Assembly (NCBI GenBank): GCA_900617975.1 | Contig: UZAE01012458.1 | Span: 17,540 to 40,648, forward strand | Reading direction: 5' to 3' | DNA from: Rodentolepis nana | Taxonomy: Eukaryota > Platyhelminthes > Cestoda > Cyclophyllidea > Hymenolepididae | DNA length: 23,109 bases | Part shown: positions 1,996-23,109 of the stretch, piece after piece | Position numbering within the stretch: position 1 is the stretch's first letter | Layout of the letters: the number at the start of each line of letters is the position of its first letter | Position numbers and translations under genes: made by a program | The notes under the pieces: generated by a model | What the model was told of the DNA's origin: nothing | What the model saw: only the letters and a program-made list of their open reading frames with translations | Databases searched by the model: none

Positions 1996-2972
1996 ATGAA
2001 ATTTAAGTGTTCTGTTCTAATACAGAAAGTCATAGAACTGAAGAAAGTATTACAAATCAATGACAAATCAAAAAGACTCCCTCTACTTACGAACTCATTA
2101 GAAGACACTGATAAAGTGTGTTGTACCCAACTGCTTGACTACTTCAGGAAATCAAACACCCTTCCAGAACAAATGCGCTCGCTGGCCCTTGAGACAATCA
2201 ATGTCAACTATTCTGTAGATCAATGGCTCCAAGTCTTCACTGAAGAGTCATACATAGAAAACCAAGCAAACGTTGGTGCAAGTGTCCATTCTGAACTCTT
2301 CTTTTTCTACGCATCAGCGGGAAACAATAGATCCGCTTTCGAAGGAGAAATAGAGACCATTAAGGTGGCACTATGCCATTCATGTTGCCTGGATACGAAA
2401 TTCACCAAAGCGGTGATACTTTCGGACACACAGTCAGCAATGAACTCAATTGGAGGCAGTGAGCCACCAAAAACAGATGAGATATACGAATGTAAAAAAA
2501 CTCTATCAGCTGCTGAGAGAGAAAAACAAAACAGTGGTCCTCTAATGGATTCCTGGTCACTGTGGCATTAAAGGCAATGAGCTTGCTGACACACTTGCTA
2601 AGAAGGGGACAACAATTTTGCAATGCATGGACTGGCCGATGTCTTTCCACACAATGAAGGCCTTAATCAGGATAGAATTCAAGACCTCAAGGTGCAACGA
2701 ACTTAAAGGAGAAACAGTGGACAGTGCCACTCTCCAACATAACCGACTGGCCAAGAATCGAAGCCATTGCTGAGTTAAGACCACGTATCGGACACGATTG
2801 CTTGGCAAAGCACCTTCACAGATTGGGAGTATACACTCAACCCACATGCCCTCTATGTAACCTACAGGAGGAAATGGAGAAGACCCATCTGATTCAATGC
2901 CCAGCCCTAAAGACAAGGACGGAAAGCCAGAGATACTGGGAAGCCAGAAGACAGCTGATGAATTGCTATTAA
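1996..2972 (+). pseudogene. LINE polyprotein C-terminus: RNase H and CCHC motif, frameshifted
   Basis: Three reading frames in succession give one RNase H-like protein. The first frame (1996 to about 2515) contains the strand with the first acidic position, where the usual D-G-S reads E83-E84-S85. It continues with the AFEGEIE segment (candidate catalytic E118) and ILSDTQSA (D144). The frame slips by one base near 2510-2520, where gctgctgag looks like a 1-nt insertion. The next frame runs through a TAA at 2543-2545, probably from CAA, into WIPGHCGIKGNELADTLAKK, whose Asp codon is 2588-2590. A further 1-nt insertion near 2708 (aaaggagaaac) moves the frame again. The last part holds C-x2-C-x9-H-x3-C (starting CPLC, about 2847-2900) and ends at 2972. 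Three of the four RNase H acidic residues remain and the first is D to E. It is dead as a gene. The N-terminal 75 residues resemble the connection region before RNase H in such LINEs. Confidence 0.85.
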
Positions 2973-3071
2973 TTAACTGCTATAAATGTACCCCCCCTTC
3001 TTGGGGGAAGCTGAAGTCAAAGTTTAAGGGCTAATGATAAATAACATAAAGCCAGCCATTTGAAATAATAA
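2973..3071 (+). other. LINE 3' UTR and tail shared with the short repeats
   Basis: A short 3' UTR follows the last stop. It starts with a possible hairpin in which a C run pairs with ggggg around ttctt (2991-3007). It then contains taagggctaatgataa (3025-3040) and gccatttgaaataa (3055-3068), both found in the same order at the ends of the short repeats. It finishes in an (AAT)n tail. Such shared 3' ends are how non-autonomous elements are recognised by a partner LINE reverse transcriptase. That role is inferred here; the sequence identity is seen directly. The stretch between stop codon and shared tail is only about 40 nt, so the body of the short repeats did not come from this 3' UTR. Confidence 0.75.
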
Positions 3072-3082
3072 TAATAATTTTA

Positions 3083-3676: not shown

Positions 3677-3688
3677 ATTTGAGATTCT
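3677..3688. repeat. Target-site duplication, left copy (short repeat 1)
   Basis: atttgagattct here matches atttgaaattct at 4013-4024 in 11 of 12 bases, the difference being a transition. The left copy ends immediately before the first G of the ribozyme, so it fixes the 5' end of the insertion. Confidence 0.85.
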
Positions 3689-3760
3689 GGGGTGTGCGAT
3701 AGACTTACCTCCACGTGGTGCACCCTGGGCAACGTATTCTCATACGGCAAAAAAGTCTAT
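3689..3760 (+). ncRNA. HDV-like self-cleaving ribozyme (intact-looking)
   Basis: All pairings of the nested HDV double pseudoknot are present. P1 is GGGGTGT (3689-3695) with GCACCCT (3720-3726), whose first pair is the conserved G.U wobble. P2 is ATAGACTT (3699-3706) with AAGTCTAT (3753-3760), a perfect 8 bp. P3 is ACC (3707-3709) with GGT (3717-3719), closing loop L3 TCCACGT. CC of L3 can form P1.1 with the GG after P1. GGGCAAC follows P1, as in HDV. P4 is GTAT (3734-3737) with ATAC (3742-3745). The joining strand GGCAAAA carries the candidate catalytic C at 3748. Self-cleavage would fall 5' of G3689, the element's first base. The HDV fold and its presence at 5' ends of R2, RTE and ingi-like elements are established; activity of this copy is inferred. 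Confidence 0.88.
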
Positions 3761-4012
3761 TAACCGGCAGTCGACTTCTGATTTCAAACTGTAATGCCCC
3801 CACTGTATGTCATATTCTACCCCTTTTACAGTACTCACCTTACCTTTTCTCTGCCTTTGTGTCTTTCTGTCTCTTTTACATCTGTGAATCTTTCTTCTGC
3901 TCCTCCTCTCGAATTTTTTTCACTTTGATATTCCTCCTTCCCTCTGTGAAGCCCGAAGTCAGCTAACGCGCAAATGATAAGTATCATTAAGCCCGCCATT
4001 TGAATTAAATAC
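3689..4012 (+). mobile_element. Short ribozyme-headed retroposon, copy 1 (full length)
   Basis: This is the best-preserved short element in the window. It has three parts. Nucleotides 3689-3760 form an HDV-like ribozyme (separate entry), shared with the LINE at 22581. A pyrimidine-rich body follows (about 3790-3945), rich in tctctttt and ttctgct motifs. Last comes a tail (about 3946-4012) with gaagtcagctaa, aatgataa and gccatttgaa, shared with the LINE at 1996-3071. It is bounded by a 12-bp target-site duplication, and the tail is A/T-rich as expected for target-primed reverse transcription. I see no tRNA-type A/B boxes, so pol III transcription is not supported. It encodes no protein: the 83-codon frame at 3715-3966 is not kept open in most other copies. 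Confidence 0.88.
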
Positions 4013-4024
4013 ATTTGAAATTCT
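4013..4024. repeat. Target-site duplication, right copy (short repeat 1)
   Basis: atttgaaattct follows the tail directly and pairs with the left copy at 3677-3688 (11 of 12 identical). Confidence 0.85.
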
Positions 4025-7398: not shown

Positions 7399-7470
7399 GG
7401 TGAGTGAGATGGACTTACCTCCACGTGGTGCACTCTGGGCAACGTGCACTCATACGGCAAAAAATTCTAT
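7399..7470 (+). ncRNA. Degenerate HDV-like ribozyme
   Basis: This is homologous to the intact ribozyme at 3689-3760 but with damaged helices. P1 (GGTGAGT with GCACTCT) has two mismatches, P2 (ATGGACTT with AATTCTAT) has one mismatch and a wobble, and P4 (GTGC with ATAC) is weakened. L3, GGGCAAC and the GGCAA strand with the catalytic C are kept. It is probably inactive or poorly active. Confidence 0.65.
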
Positions 7471-7698
7471 GAACCGGCAGTTGACTTCTGACTTCAATCT
7501 ACCACTTCCGTGGTACTCATCTTACTTTTCTGTCTTTGAGTCTGTCTGTCTGTCTCTTTTACAACTGTAAATCATACTTCTGTTTTCCCTCTTAAATTTG
7601 CCCACTTTGTCTGTTCCTCCCTTCGGTGAAGCCCCGAAGTCAGCTAAGGGCTAATGATAACTATCAAAACGCCTGCCCTTTACTATAAATAAATTGGA
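7399..7698 (+). mobile_element. Short ribozyme-headed retroposon, copy 2 (diverged)
   Basis: This copy has the same head-body-tail order as copy 1. The head reads from ggtgagtgagatggactt through ccacgtggtgca, gggcaac and catacggcaa. The body is shortened, lacking the segment around the catattc motif present in other copies. The tail, with gaagtcagctaagggctaat and aactatcaaaacgcctgcc, ends in ataaataaa. Flanks taaagatt (7391-7398) and taaaaatt (7699-7706) agree in 7 of 8 bases and may be a decayed target-site duplication, though AT content makes this weak. The body contains a short (tctg)n run near 7544. Confidence 0.85.
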
Positions 7699-10381: not shown

Positions 10382-10623
10382 GGGGTGTGCGATAGACCAC
10401 CATGGCCCCACCGTATGTCATATTCGACCACATTCACAGTATTCATCGTTCCTTATCTCTGCCTTTGTGCCTATCTGTCTCTTTCACATATGTGAATCAC
10501 TCAATTGTCCCCCCTCTCGACTTTTGCCTCTTTGATGTTCAAACTCCTCTCTGTGAAGCCTGACGTCAGCTAAATGGCTAATGATAAGTACCAAAACGCC
10601 TGTCATTCGAAACAAAAAAATAA
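10382..10623 (+). mobile_element. Short retroposon, copy 3, ribozyme core deleted
   Basis: The element starts with the family's GGGGTGTGCGATAGAC (5' strands of P1 and most of P2). It then jumps straight to the body segment, which in other copies lies after the cttcaaac motif. About 105 nt are missing: P3, P1', P4, the catalytic strand and P2'. The junction shares 2-3 bases (ac), consistent with microhomology-mediated deletion. Body and tail (tgacgtcagctaaatggct, ccaaaacgcctgtcatt) are intact. A perfect 14-bp target-site duplication flanks the copy, suggesting it is the youngest insertion here. The 64-codon frame at 10341-10535 is body sequence read as protein, not a gene. Confidence 0.88.
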
Positions 10624-11093: not shown

Positions 11094-11915
11094 ATAGGTG
11101 CCCTGTGTAGCCTTCACACTTAAAGGGCAAGCCTACGTGACCGGAAGCATTGGGGCTCTATAATGGGGATGGAGGCTGAAGCATTTTGGAGAAACAAGTT
11201 ATTAGGGAGCAAAAAGTGCCCTGGCGGGAGATACTTATGCCCATTTTCAACGACCAGTCTAAGATCAAATTAATGAACAGACTACAGCCAATTAATGTCT
11301 AAATCATATTAGGTGATATTTTTTTAAGACAATGAAGCTTATGCAATATTGTCATTCTGTTAATGCCACAATCAGATAATAGTAAATAGAACAAATAATA
11401 ATTTTTTAAAACAACTTCAAAATTGGCAGTAGTTGAATGTTCCAAAAGTGAATATCAGAAATTTTCAAACGTACCATAAAACACACAAATCGAGAATAAA
11501 CGAAAAAGCAAAATGGCTTTTTCACGTTGTCCTTGGTTCGAAGCATAGTTTCCTTCCCCTAACTTGAATATTTTGCCGCTATTTATATTGAATTTTCCTA
11601 CTGCAAACAATGTTTAATTATTAAATAAAGCATGATATGCGAAATATAACTGAATTCGGAATCGATTTTTAACTGGAGAGGTTCAAATTTTATTCCAATT
11701 TACGTAAAAAGGCAACTGTTCATTAAAAATCTCATGTGTTCGCTGTATGTATTTAGACGGGTAAGACAAGCACAATTTTATCCCACTTTTAATTCACAAA
11801 ATTACTTGAGAAATCTGGGATGGATTTTTTTATTAGAACTAAGCAATTTGATAATATTTTATTTTAATTTATCAATTTTTCCCTCTTTTTTAAATTAATC
11901 AGAAAACCTGTTTTT

Positions 11916-11980
11916 AATTTGGGGGAGGGGGGGGGGGGGGAAACAANTTTGGGGGGGGGGGGGGGGGGGGAAACAAATTC
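11916..11980. repeat. Two near-identical long G runs separated by an N
   Basis: A G run with one A (11921-11940) is followed by aaacaa, an N at 11947, ttt, and a second G run (11951-11970) followed again by aaacaaat. The repeated ttt-Gn-aaacaa unit next to an ambiguous base suggests an assembly or polymerase-slippage duplication of one homopolymer. If real, the runs have G-quadruplex potential. Confidence 0.75.
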
Positions 11981-12421
11981 TGTGAAAAGATTGAGCTACT
12001 TATATAAATAAGTAATAGGCATATTTTAGCTTCAATTTAGCATAGCCGTAGATTAGTAACAACATATCGACATTCATTTTTTCATGATACAACTACATAA
12101 TTTTATTTGTTGCATCAAAAATTCCACAGAAGTCAGCAAACTAATATCTGTTAATAATAAGTCTGAATTAATAATTAGCATTAGTCAATAATAAGCCATT
12201 TATATTTATTTATTTTAAATGGCAGGCGTTTCGATAGTTAACATTTGCCCATTAGCTGACTTCGGTCTTGGCAGAGGAGAAGGAACATCAAAGTAATAGA
12301 AAGTCGAGGAGTGGAGAACAGAAGGGAGATACACAGATTTAAAAGAGACTGACGGACACAAAGGTTGAGAAAGGATAAGATGAGTACTGTGAAAGGAGTC
12401 GAATATGACATACAGTGAGTC

Positions 12422-12506
12422 ATGGTAGTTTGAAGTCAGAAGTTAACTGCCGGTTTATAGATGGGTGATGGTAGTTTGAAGTCAGAAGTTAACTGCCGGT
12501 TTATAG
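12422..12506. repeat. Tandem duplication inside short repeat 4
   Basis: A 39-bp unit (atggtagtttgaagtcag through ttatag) occurs at 12422-12460 and 12468-12506, period 46, apparently without mismatch. It spans the boundary between the ribozyme's P2 3' strand and the element body, so a second partial P2' strand (ctataaac on the minus strand) exists downstream of the ribozyme. Confidence 0.88.
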
Positions 12507-12574
12507 ACTGTTTTGCCGTATTAGTATACGTTGTCCAGGATGCCCCACGTGGAGGTAAGTCAATCGCACACCCT
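12503..12574 (-). ncRNA. Degenerate HDV-like ribozyme
   Basis: On the minus strand P1 is AGGGTGT with GCATCCT: the G.U wobble is replaced by A-U, and one G.U occurs inside. P2 is ATTGACTT with CAGTCTAT, with two mismatches. P3 is ACC with GGG, losing a terminal pair. The joining segment GGGCAAC has become GGACAAC. P4 GTAT/ATAC and the catalytic GGCAAAA are kept. The damage in P2, P3 and the joining segment makes efficient cleavage doubtful. Confidence 0.65.
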
Positions 12575-13033: not shown

Positions 13034-13045
13034 ACCATCAAATAT

Positions 13046-13343
13046 ATATTTATTTCAAATGGCAGCCGTTTTGATAGTTATCATCAGCCATTTAGTTGAC
13101 TTTGGGCTTCACAGAGGGAAGGAACATCAATGCGACAAAAAGTGGAGAGGGGGGACAGAATAATGATTCATAGATGTAAAAGAGACAGACTGAAACAAAG
13201 GCTTAGAAAAGGTAAAATGAGTACTGTGTCAGGGTCATTGTAACTTGAAGTCGGGAGTCAACTGGCAGTTAAAAGACTTTTTTGCCGTATGAGTAAACGT
13301 TGCCCAGGGTGCACCACGTGGAGGTAAGTCTATCGCACACCCC
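13046..13343 (-). mobile_element. Short ribozyme-headed retroposon, copy 5 (full length)
   Basis: This is a minus-strand copy with its 5' end at 13343. It has an almost intact ribozyme head (13272-13343), a body with ctgtctcttttacatctatg on the minus strand, and the tail gaagcccaaagtcaacta, aactatcaaaacggctgcc ending in gaaataaata. Flanks accatcaaatat (13034-13045) and accatcgtatat (13344-13355) match in 10 of 12 bases, including the first six. The right flank starts directly at the base beyond the four C's, placing the 5' end exactly at the ribozyme's first G. Confidence 0.88.
13272..13343 (-). ncRNA. HDV-like self-cleaving ribozyme (nearly intact)
   Basis: On the minus strand P1 is GGGGTGT with GCACCCT, complete and beginning with the G.U wobble. 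P3 is ACC/GGT, L3 is TCCACGT, and GGGCAAC and the catalytic GGCAAAA are unchanged. P2 (ATAGACTT with AAGTCTTT) has one mismatch out of eight, and P4 (GTTT with ATAC) has one mismatch. Its length, 72 nt, equals that of the intact copy at 3689. Weak activity is plausible but unproven. Confidence 0.78.
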
Positions 13344-20238: not shown

Positions 20239-20310
20239 GGAGTGTGCGATAGACTTACCTCCACGTGGTGCACCCTGAGCAACCTATACTCATACGGTAA
20301 AACAGTCTAT
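20239..20310 (+). ncRNA. HDV-like ribozyme with catalytic C lost
   Basis: The family ribozyme is recognisable (P3, L3, P1' GCACCCT). P1 has one A-C mismatch (GGAGTGT), GGGCAAC has become GAGCAAC, P4 has lost its first pair (CTAT with ATAC), and the catalytic strand reads GGTAAAA in place of GGCAAAA. Replacing the active-site C by U should abolish general-acid catalysis, so this copy is predicted dead. Confidence 0.72.
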
Positions 20311-20358
20311 AAATCGGCTTTCGCTATACTCATACGGTAAAACAGTCTATAAATCGGC
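20284..20358. repeat. Tandem duplication inside short repeat 6
   Basis: ctatactcatacggtaaa through aaatcggc (35 bp) occurs at 20284-20318 and, without visible mismatch, at 20324-20358, period 40. It duplicates P4, the catalytic strand and P2' of the ribozyme. Both copies carry the same C-to-T change, so the duplication came after that mutation. Confidence 0.88.
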
Positions 20359-20750
20359 AGTTGAGTTCTGACTTCTAACTACTATCACCCCAATTTACGC
20401 CATATTCGAACCCTTCCACAGTACTCATCCAGCCTCTTTACTTCCTTTGTATCTATCTCTTTTACATTTTTGAAACACTCTTCTGTTTCCCCCCCCCCCT
20501 CTCCACTTCTTTCATCTTGATGTTCCTTTCCCTCTATGAAGCCTGAAGTCAACTAAAGGGCTAATGATAACTGTCAAAACGCCTGCTATTTGATATAAAT
20601 AAATAAATACATGTTGCCAAAATACTGCCTACAGCTAAATATGCCCCAATGTTGTTCAAATATGTTTACAAATTGTCTAGTCTCGACTACTGCTTTAACC
20701 TTAATAAGGTACAAATGCCCCAATGATGTTAAACAACAAGCAACCCTCCC

Positions 20751-21107
20751 AACCTTTGAAAGAAAAGGGTGGGTAAAAGTCTTTGCCCATTAACCTTTCC
20801 ACTTTCGAGTGTAGATGGCAAGAATTTTCTGGGAAGTAAATTAACCTCAGCACTTTAAATCTCTCACTACATTATTCATGTTTCTTGGTCTATTGCTTCT
20901 GTTCTTAAACGCATTGATCCCTTTGTCTAACCTTTGAAAGAAAAGGGTGGGTAAAAAGTCTTTGCCCATTAACCTTTCCACTTTCGAGTGTAGATGGCAA
21001 GAATTTTCTGGGAAGTAAATTAACCTCAGCACTTTAAATCTCTCACTACATTATTCATGTTTCTTGGTCTATTGCTTCTGTTCTTAAACGCATTGATCCC
21101 TTTGTCT
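20751..21107. repeat. 178-bp tandem duplication
   Basis: Copy 1 (20751-20928) begins aacctttgaaagaaaagggt and ends gatccctttgtct. Copy 2 (20929-21107) is the same apart from one extra A in its gggtaaaaag stretch. Near identity means a very recent duplication or an assembly artefact. The unit has no recognisable domain or RNA fold. The frames crossing it (20611-20793 + and 20847-21032 -) look like chance. Confidence 0.92.
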
Positions 21108-21471
21108 AATTATCTTAAGGGAGTATTCTGCTCTAGAAAAAAATTGTTTTTGCATAATTCCATAGTTTAACTAATTAAAAATATGTCTACTAGAGGATTT
21201 TCCAAAATTCAAAATATTTTCGGAGAAATAAGTATTTTGCTGAGCAGGCATCCAAATCGGTTGGGCTGCAACTAAAGGAACAAAAGACATATTGGGTTCT
21301 CCGACTACCTGAATCTATATTTCTTAGTAAGCCCTTTTGTTCCGTTATTTCTATATATATATATATTTTTCACGGCAATAGATATACGGAACAGGAAAAC
21401 ACCAGTTTTACTAGTGCATCTGCAGCAAAGTTGAGGAAATAAAAAGATGAAGAGGTAATTATAGATAATAA

Positions 21472-21731
21472 TTAAGGCTACAGTTTTTGGAGTTTTTCAC
21501 GGTCTTTTCAGCAATTTCTTTGTTTATTTCGTGTACTACATGCAACAACGAGATTATATTTTCAAGAACGGCTCAACGCCGACTCGGTTTCAAAATAGCA
21601 TTACAATGCAGTTGCAATAGTCTACGCTACATTCCATCATGTCCTCAATGCAGTTGCAATAGTCTACGCTACATTCCATCATGTCCATTCGTTGAAAAAT
21701 CCTTCAAAGTTTATCATCAGAAGAGTTATTG
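21472..21731 (+). pseudogene. Mutator-like transposase, N-terminal fragment
   Basis: The frame opens after a stop at 21469-21471 and contains AISLFISCTTCNNEIIF and RRLGFKIALQCSCNS, then FVEKSFKV. This Cys-rich pattern, followed by the aromatic/Lys-rich SFxV stretch, is typical of the zinc-binding N-terminus of insect-type Mutator-like (MULE) transposases, by recall of the family. A 42-bp (14-codon) duplication inserts a second QCSCNSLRYIPSCP block in frame. After KSFKV the family sequence continues one base out of frame (IIRRVIDSVFGLR from about 21712), so there is a frameshift before the stop at 21730-21732. No ATG is evident at the start. The DDE catalytic core is absent from the window. 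Confidence 0.6.
21604..21686. repeat. 42-bp tandem duplication within the transposase fragment
   Basis: caatgcagttgcaatagtct through catgtcc is repeated exactly with period 42 (copies 21604-21645 and 21646-21686). The length is a multiple of three, so the reading frame is kept. Confidence 0.92.
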
Positions 21732-22580: not shown

Positions 22581-22651
22581 GGGGTGCGCGATAGACTTAC
22601 CTCCTCGTGGTGCACCCTGGGCAACGTATACTCATACGGCAAAAAGTTTAT
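22581..22651 (+). ncRNA. HDV-like self-cleaving ribozyme of the LINE
   Basis: P1 is GGGGTGC (22581-22587) with GCACCCT (22612-22618): G.U at the cleavage site, and a C-G closing pair where the short repeats have U.G. P2 is ATAGACTT (22591-22598) with AAGTTTAT (22644-22651), 8 bp with one G.U. P3 is ACC (22599-22601) with GGT (22609-22611). L3 is TCCTCGT, close to the UCCUCGC of genomic HDV. GGGCAAC follows P1', P4 is GTAT (22626-22629) with ATAC (22634-22637), and the candidate catalytic C is 22640 in GGCAAAA. Both sequence changes relative to the copy at 3689 preserve pairing, which supports selection on the fold. Cleavage would free a 5'-OH G at 22581, the first base of the element. Confidence 0.9.
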
Positions 22652-22700
22652 CACTCGGCATTTGATTTGACTTCGATTTATTATGATTAGCTTGAAATAA

Positions 22701-23109
22701 GGCTATGAGAGAAATCGCCCTCGTCAGGGTGAATCACAACGTCTTCAGATCCTCTAGTGGAATGCTGGAGGGATGTCACAGGACAAAAAGATCCAAGACC
22801 AGAAAATCCTAAAAACCTATGATGTAGACATTTTTACAATAATGGAAGCAAACATTTCGGATGACAAACTGAAGTACTACCAATTCCCAGGTTACACCCT
22901 GTACCTTCTACCTAAATACCGGCAAGTTGCAAGTGGAATTCTAACTGGAGTAAAAGATGGCCTCACCTCACACTACGATCAAATCAAGAGTATGGGCTCG
23001 ACACAAGACAAATGTGAAATAATCCAATTAAATATTTAGAAATGTCAAAACCACTTCAAGGTATATGCAGTCTACAATCCACCCCAGAATTTTCCCAACT
23101 TTGACCTTC
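22701..23109 (+). pseudogene. LINE APE-type endonuclease domain, N-terminal part
   Basis: The frame open after the stop at 22698-22700 reads LQIL, a TAG (22755-22757), then WNAGGM, the start pattern of APE/EEP endonucleases (usual form LLQWNAGG). The TAG is most simply a CAG mutated to a stop. From the ATG at 22773 it continues KTYDVDIFTIMEANIS, where the Glu (residue 25 from that ATG) is the metal-binding position of the family, then FPGYTLY, ASGILTGVKDGL and CEIIQLNI. A second TAG (23037-23039) interrupts, and the frame resumes as KVYAVYNPPQNFP, the VYNPP element of APE domains, to the window end. The domain nicks target DNA for target-primed reverse transcription. With two stops this copy is not functional. 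Confidence 0.85.

Follow-up and report, generated by a model that had tools for sequence, protein, structure and literature searches.

A short repeat in the genome of the tapeworm Rodentolepis nana begins with an HDV-like ribozyme, and it raises the question of how an element of this size, without a coding capacity of its own, is transcribed and moved. In the present study, we analysed a window of 23,109 nucleotides (assembly GCA_900617975.1, contig UZAE01012458.1, positions 17,540 to 40,648 of the forward strand) together with DNA fetched from other loci of the same assembly. We consider it highly probable (approximately 0.85) that the element is a SIDE, that is, a non-autonomous non-LTR retroposon in which both ends, the 5' one with its ribozyme and the 3' one, are those of an APE-type LINE with RNase H, around a body that has no convincing match in the LINE pieces examined, and that it is moved by the LINE machinery. 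The parts of the copy under study, copy 1, and of its ribozyme are as follows.

3677..3688, forward strand: left target-site duplication, ATTTGAGATTCT (direct reading; relaxed duplication test)
3689..4012, forward strand: short non-coding retroposon, probable SIDE, copy 1, 324 bp with an (AAAT)n-like tail (family consensus)
3689..3785, forward strand: head, consensus nt 1-97 (87.6% identity to the LINE 5' end)
3786..3926, forward strand: body, approximately consensus nt 98-239, boundary approximate (without a match to the LINE pieces examined)
3927..4012, forward strand: tail, approximately consensus nt 240-330, boundary approximate (84% identity to the LINE 3' end; predicted hairpin)
4013..4024, forward strand: right target-site duplication, ATTTGAAATTCT (direct reading; relaxed duplication test)
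3689..3760, forward strand: HDV-like ribozyme, double pseudoknot of P1, P1.1, P2, P3 and P4 (RF02682, 45.2 bits, and pair count)
3689-3695/3720-3726, forward strand: P1, 7 bp, with a G1-U pair at the predicted cleavage site (direct reading)
3699-3706/3753-3760, forward strand: P2, 8 of 8 pairs Watson-Crick (direct reading)
3707-3709/3717-3719, forward strand: P3, 3 bp (direct reading)
3711-3712/3727-3728, forward strand: P1.1, 2 bp (direct reading)
3733-3737/3742-3746, forward strand: P4, 5 bp (direct reading)
3748, forward strand: C that occupies the catalytic-C position of HDV (consensus C60, J4/2; present in 50 of 51 copies)

An Rfam scan and direct reading both identified a complete HDV-like ribozyme at 3689-3760. 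Model RF02682 matched positions 3691-3760 with a score above its gathering value of 44 (E-value 1.4e-5 over the 23 kb searched), and five further, weaker matches to this model lie elsewhere in the window. Model RF00094 matched 3687-3760 at 35.8 bits, short of its gathering score of 50. Copy 1 and the family consensus can both form all five helices. The register of P1 is the point of conflict, since the RF02682 alignment shifts this helix two bases downstream with one mismatch. However, the RF00094 match begins two bases upstream of 3689, as that model does ahead of its own P1, and this start agrees with the target-site duplications. Therefore, we favour the register with G1 at 3689, for which the cleavage site is predicted directly 5' of this base. 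We take the G1-U wobble of P1 to be as in HDV, and the C at 3748 is presumably the equivalent of the HDV catalytic C.

P2 provides independent support because it is absent from the pairs of the printed Rfam models. The preliminary description had reported P2 as perfect over 8 bp within an intact 72-nt ribozyme, and both statements agree with the present reading; eight contiguous pairs in shuffled strands of the same composition have a probability of 0.00042. Pseudoknot-free folding programs cannot draw P1.1 and P2, and folding prediction was applied to the tails. The structure is a proposal from sequence. It draws on the match to Rfam, on P2 as a helix that those models lack, on the 5' boundary and on conservation. 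A first look across the genome gave 25,212 candidates, of which 61 were scored with Rfam; 59 matched RF02682 at E <=0.001, 37 of these exceeded the gathering score, and other copies reached up to 54.5 bits. No RF02682 match was found in 14 control genomes, and the ribozyme core had no exact match in viral contigs.

The family consensus was built from 46 copies and trimmed to 330 nt. The extent of 324 bp first given for copy 1 was confirmed, and the element is flanked by a 12-bp duplication with one mismatch between its left and right forms. The duplications and the simple 3' repeat tail are features of non-LTR retroposons inserted by target-primed reverse transcription (TPRT). In agreement with the statement that the element encodes no protein, no conserved frame was found among the copies, and the 87-codon frame of copy 1 is open in only 5 of 51 copies. 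The source of the body (nt 98-239) was sought in the LINE ends and interior pieces examined, with no convincing match. Body matches in the fetched DNA numbered 78, and the two that fell outside annotated copies were found on inspection to be further copies of the element.

The window contains five other copies of the short element and two portions of its partner LINE.

7399..7695, forward strand: second copy, with a damaged ribozyme of 28.3 bits (Rfam and copy search)
10382..10623, forward strand: copy that keeps the first 16 nt; an internal deletion took most of the ribozyme (copy search)
12202..12573, reverse strand: copy with a 46-nt tandem duplication (copy search)
13043..13343, reverse strand: copy with a near-intact ribozyme of 39.9 bits (Rfam and copy search)
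20239..20606, forward strand: copy with an internal duplication (Rfam and copy search)
2050..3081, forward strand: 3' part of the partner LINE, with an RNase H region, a zinc-finger-like region and the shared tail at its 3' end (RNase H by Pfam in the related loci L047 and L086)
22581..23109, forward strand: 5' end of the partner LINE, with the shared ribozyme (38.0 bits) followed by an endonuclease frame that runs off the contig (domains found in the related locus L047)

We noted several local duplications in this material. A unit of approximately 46 nt that starts in the 3' strand of P2 occurs in tandem at 12416-12507 (reverse strand), at 20239-20350 and in three other loci (L014, L045 and L081), and some ribozyme cores among the genome matches listed are spaced by just 40 or 81 bases. 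A direct repeat of 168 nt with 97% identity and a spacing of 179 nt occupies 20763-21109, and two identical 41-nt direct repeats with one base between them occupy 21604-21686. A single N is present at repeat junctions in the window (11911-11970) and in many fetched loci, which hold 38 such one-N runs. These Ns seem to mark repeats that were joined or collapsed in the assembly, and structures that span them are untrustworthy.

Both ends of the short element derive from one LINE family. The 84% identity of the tail extends over 96 columns, and a 3' hairpin is predicted in the tails of both the short element and the LINE. The LINE pieces encode endonuclease, reverse transcriptase (RVT_1) and RNase H domains. 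A database search with the reverse transcriptase of the LINE returned a R. nana protein that is 99% identical, over 214 of its 248 aa, to contig G000:C4190 of the assembly. Locus L036 covers the ribozyme and the endonuclease and reaches the start of the reverse transcriptase, where it overlaps the reverse transcriptase frame of L079 (96.5% over 115 nt). Locus L088 contains no N and leads from the end of the reverse transcriptase region to the LINE 3' end. These overlapping stretches, all free of N, link both ends to one LINE. The order of endonuclease, reverse transcriptase and RNase H fits the L1Tc/ingi clade without being diagnostic of it, and the names BS and X-element carried by relatives of this LINE look like annotation transfers. 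As candidates for living intermediates between the LINE and the short element, we considered 17 loci in which the LINE ends lie closer together than the estimated LINE length permits; they were set aside because a single N, the mark of the assembly, stands between the ends in 16 of the 17.

The position of the ribozyme in the family was assessed from the 5' ends of the copies. An nhmmer search yielded 46 untargeted short-element copies, six of them in the window, and the six copies cut by a locus edge were excluded from the count of 5' ends. Of the remaining 40, 28 reach nt 1-4, four start at nt 5-11, two at nt 12-73 and six beyond; the corresponding numbers outside the window are 23, 4, 2 and 5 of 34. 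Most copies examined carry the ribozyme, a point that the preliminary description had proposed to check. Target-site duplications were tested in 51 of 53 candidates, namely those with sufficient flank, and this set differs from the 51 copies used for divergence. By the relaxed test, a duplication adjoins G1 exactly in 30 of 51 copies (versus 7 of 1004 chimeric controls), and exact-match duplications were found in 23 of 51 copies, 14 of them at offset 0, versus 25 of 1000 controls. Among the five copies of the window that entered this test, copy 1 is the one with a duplication adjoining G1. Loci L001, L031 and L061 duplicate the window and were excluded from the 5'-end, divergence, duplication and deleted-LINE tests.

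Divergence was examined in 51 copies with one uninterrupted match from nt 1-11 to at least nt 310, 29 of which were targeted. The ribozyme is closer to the consensus than nt 98-312 in 44 of the 51. Private changes outside CpG occur at similar rates in the ribozyme and outside it (0.0252 and 0.0299, p 0.18; two looser cut-offs gave p 0.31 and 0.065). Shared changes are 2.7 times rarer in the ribozyme (0.0287 versus 0.0777), and approximately seven times rarer at a stricter cut; since shared alleles come from related copies, Fisher values for this comparison of private and shared changes overstate its significance. Shared variants occur at 9 of the 72 ribozyme sites, compared with 89 of 240 sites outside it (5 and 66 in the untargeted subset, 7 and 60 in the targeted one). 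A common second base was found at 1 of 72 ribozyme sites versus 26 of 240 sites outside (Fisher p 0.008), and none of 169 stretches of 72 nt starting at nt 73 or later was as conserved as the ribozyme. Near-equal private changes and rarer shared changes indicate conservation of the ribozyme among source copies. It is there that selection seems to operate, while inserted copies drift.

The preliminary description had asked whether the helices are conserved beyond neutral drift. This was the case for the sequence in source copies, but not in the form of covariation within helices. Pairs are broken at a frequency of 0.0996 in the copies versus 0.078 under a null with each copy's own mutation rate, and in 99.8% of its runs the null did not exceed the observed value; all 25 pairs are intact in 11 of 51 copies. 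The pair count used 65 sequences, 59 of them distinct, from 33 of 56 short-element ribozymes, 22 of 28 LINE heads, loci L092-L097 and L065, and three more copies of the window. Standard pairs occupy 94.3% of cells in these ribozymes versus 94.1% in shuffles. No covariation beyond shuffles was found in this set, in which two pairs changed on both sides, a number matched by 191 of 500 shuffles, and the change of A13 to U in P2 is accompanied by a compensating change in 1 of 54 copies. The ribozymes are very similar to each other, and the covariation test is therefore a weak one.

Copy number was estimated by pattern searches in the 107-Mb assembly of 4,701 contigs, with up to three mismatches allowed and no matches to reversed-pattern controls. 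These searches returned 15,232 ribozyme cores, 10,123 head junctions and 10,184 tails of the short element, and 296 5' UTRs and 932 tails of the partner LINE, all of which are matches rather than distinct insertions, inflated by tandem duplications and overlapping contigs and lowered by divergence. The near-equal numbers of heads and tails point to little 5' loss in the short element. The LINE retains its 5' end approximately one third as often as its tail.

The results obtained are consistent with the following cycle. A longer transcript would be cut by the ribozyme just upstream of G1, and the released RNA would carry a 5'-OH at GGGG. The LINE protein may then recognise the common 3' hairpin and tail and copy the RNA into a nick through TPRT. 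A full-length copy that begins at G1 would again be a ribozyme, able to free itself from a surrounding transcript. The short element appears to borrow the enzymes of the LINE, and we infer its mobilisation in trans from the shared 3' end and the target-site duplications. The precursor could be supplied by host read-through or by an internal promoter in the head. Read-through is a plausible source. We hold more tentatively, at somewhat less than even odds, the stronger proposal that approximately ten thousand dispersed copies arose in this animal without a promoter of their own, through host read-through alone and release by a ribozyme that substitutes for a SINE's pol III head.

The conserved 5' block may have been kept for a function other than release. 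Its main role could be that of an internal promoter similar to Pr77 of trypanosomatids, with transcription starting at G1 and self-cleavage being secondary or serving to trim read-through RNA. The 5' boundary would be the same if transcription began at G1, and Pr77 is reported to be both a promoter and an HDV-like ribozyme (PMC4035085). However, what is conserved is a complete ribozyme in which the single common variable site (nt 50) is a loop position, and both strands of P2, which lie 46 nt apart, are kept. We regard a mainly promoter role as less likely than not, while noting that it is compatible with the explanation that we prefer. The block could also be a binding site of the LINE protein, with catalysis lost or irrelevant. 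At least one pair is broken in 40 of 51 copies and covariation is absent, which speaks for such a site; however, broken pairs are explicable by decay after insertion, the catalytic C is almost invariant, and the boundary of the copies coincides with the predicted cleavage site. This possibility appears distinctly less probable than a promoter.

Two further explanations concern the identity of the repeat itself. Its size, dispersal, layout of head, body and tail, and a tail common to a LINE are also those of an ordinary pol III SINE, and the promoter might have been overlooked. However, the best A and B boxes in the element do not outscore those of shuffles (P 0.98 and 1.0), no tRNA is present in the window, and three runs of at least four T lie inside the element. 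No pol III head was found upstream of GGGG, where the ribozyme starts the element, in agreement with the original observation that a ribozyme stands in place of such a head. We consider an overlooked SINE promoter the most improbable of the readings weighed here. Nearly as improbable is a contaminant of the assembly as the source of the repeats. In its favour, the named sequences closest to the LINE protein, apart from those of Hymenolepididae, are spider and cockroach sequences. Against this, related LINE proteins are present in Hymenolepis microstoma, 59 of the contigs C1 to C102 carry perfect ribozyme cores among the matches listed, and the assembly contains a cestode mitochondrial COX1. 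The latter gene lies at G000:C1797:9958-11292 (L091); the two database clusters closest to it show 91% and 89% identity, and the one at 89% is named Pseudanoplocephala crawfordi. These identities are low for an assembly in which a nuclear contig points to R. nana. A SIDE of the tapeworm's own genome remains the explanation that we prefer.

In the open-licence literature, going by titles and the openings of abstracts, we found no report of a ribozyme-headed retroposon in a tapeworm. The genome of H. microstoma is described as containing 1% LINEs, with 14.8% of its repetitive sequence unclassified, and the word SINE is absent from the main text of that paper (PMC7653826). The occurrence of a partner LINE and its parasite in the same animal genome offers a direct test bed for the transcription of a retroposon that lacks a pol III promoter, and the system bears on whether a self-cleaving 5' end suffices for dispersed spread. 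Furthermore, approximately fifteen thousand ribozyme cores raise the question of effects on host transcripts, if they lie in introns and UTRs.

The suggestion of a new SINE-like class was not sustained, because ribozyme-headed SIDEs have already been published (PMC3414825, PMC4035085). The tapeworm family is most probably a SIDE akin to the R2 SIDEs of Drosophila and to NARTc and RIME of trypanosomes, and it is not a new class. According to PMC3414825, the R2 SIDEs also carry a 5' HDV-like ribozyme related to that of their partner LINE and similarly show mostly precise 5' junctions, and they are not transcribed by pol III. R2Dwi_SIDE consists of the same three parts: its 5' ribozyme is followed by 197 bp that share no identity with R2, and the R2 3' end closes the element. 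However, R2 SIDEs reside in 28S genes and are co-transcribed with rRNA, whereas the tapeworm element is dispersed, has target-site duplications and gives approximately ten thousand matches. Its partner LINE has an endonuclease and RNase H, unlike the R2 setting, and the ribozymes of R2 SIDEs were shown to cleave (PMC3414825), while that of the tapeworm is predicted from its sequence.

The short elements NARTc, RIME and SIDER of trypanosomatids similarly carry the 5' HDV-like ribozyme (Pr77) of L1Tc/ingi LINEs. As described in PMC4035085, L1Tc and ingi have short counterparts, NARTc and RIME, which carry the Pr77 ribozyme; L1Tc encodes an APE endonuclease, reverse transcriptase and RNase H, and NARTc, RIME and SIDER rank with the most abundant repeats in the genomes that contain them. 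As a point of difference, Pr77 also acts as a promoter, and the likeness to the tapeworm element is one of layout rather than of sequence comparison. Persaeus, a SIDE linked to the CR1 LINE Zenon in Lepidoptera, likewise combines a high copy number (up to 115,283 copies) with the lack of a pol III promoter; its head is the CR1 5' UTR, and the word ribozyme is absent from that paper (PMC6740152). The ribozyme itself matches RF02682 (HDV-F-prausnitzii) above gathering in sequence and structure; this family is named for a bacterium, whereas the tapeworm version heads retroposons and has its P1 register two bases off. According to PMC3414825 and PMC6740152, SIDEs are rare, and the known ones mostly have few copies. 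In the tapeworm family, a ribozyme head occurs together with dispersed sites and a high copy number, here in a flatworm.
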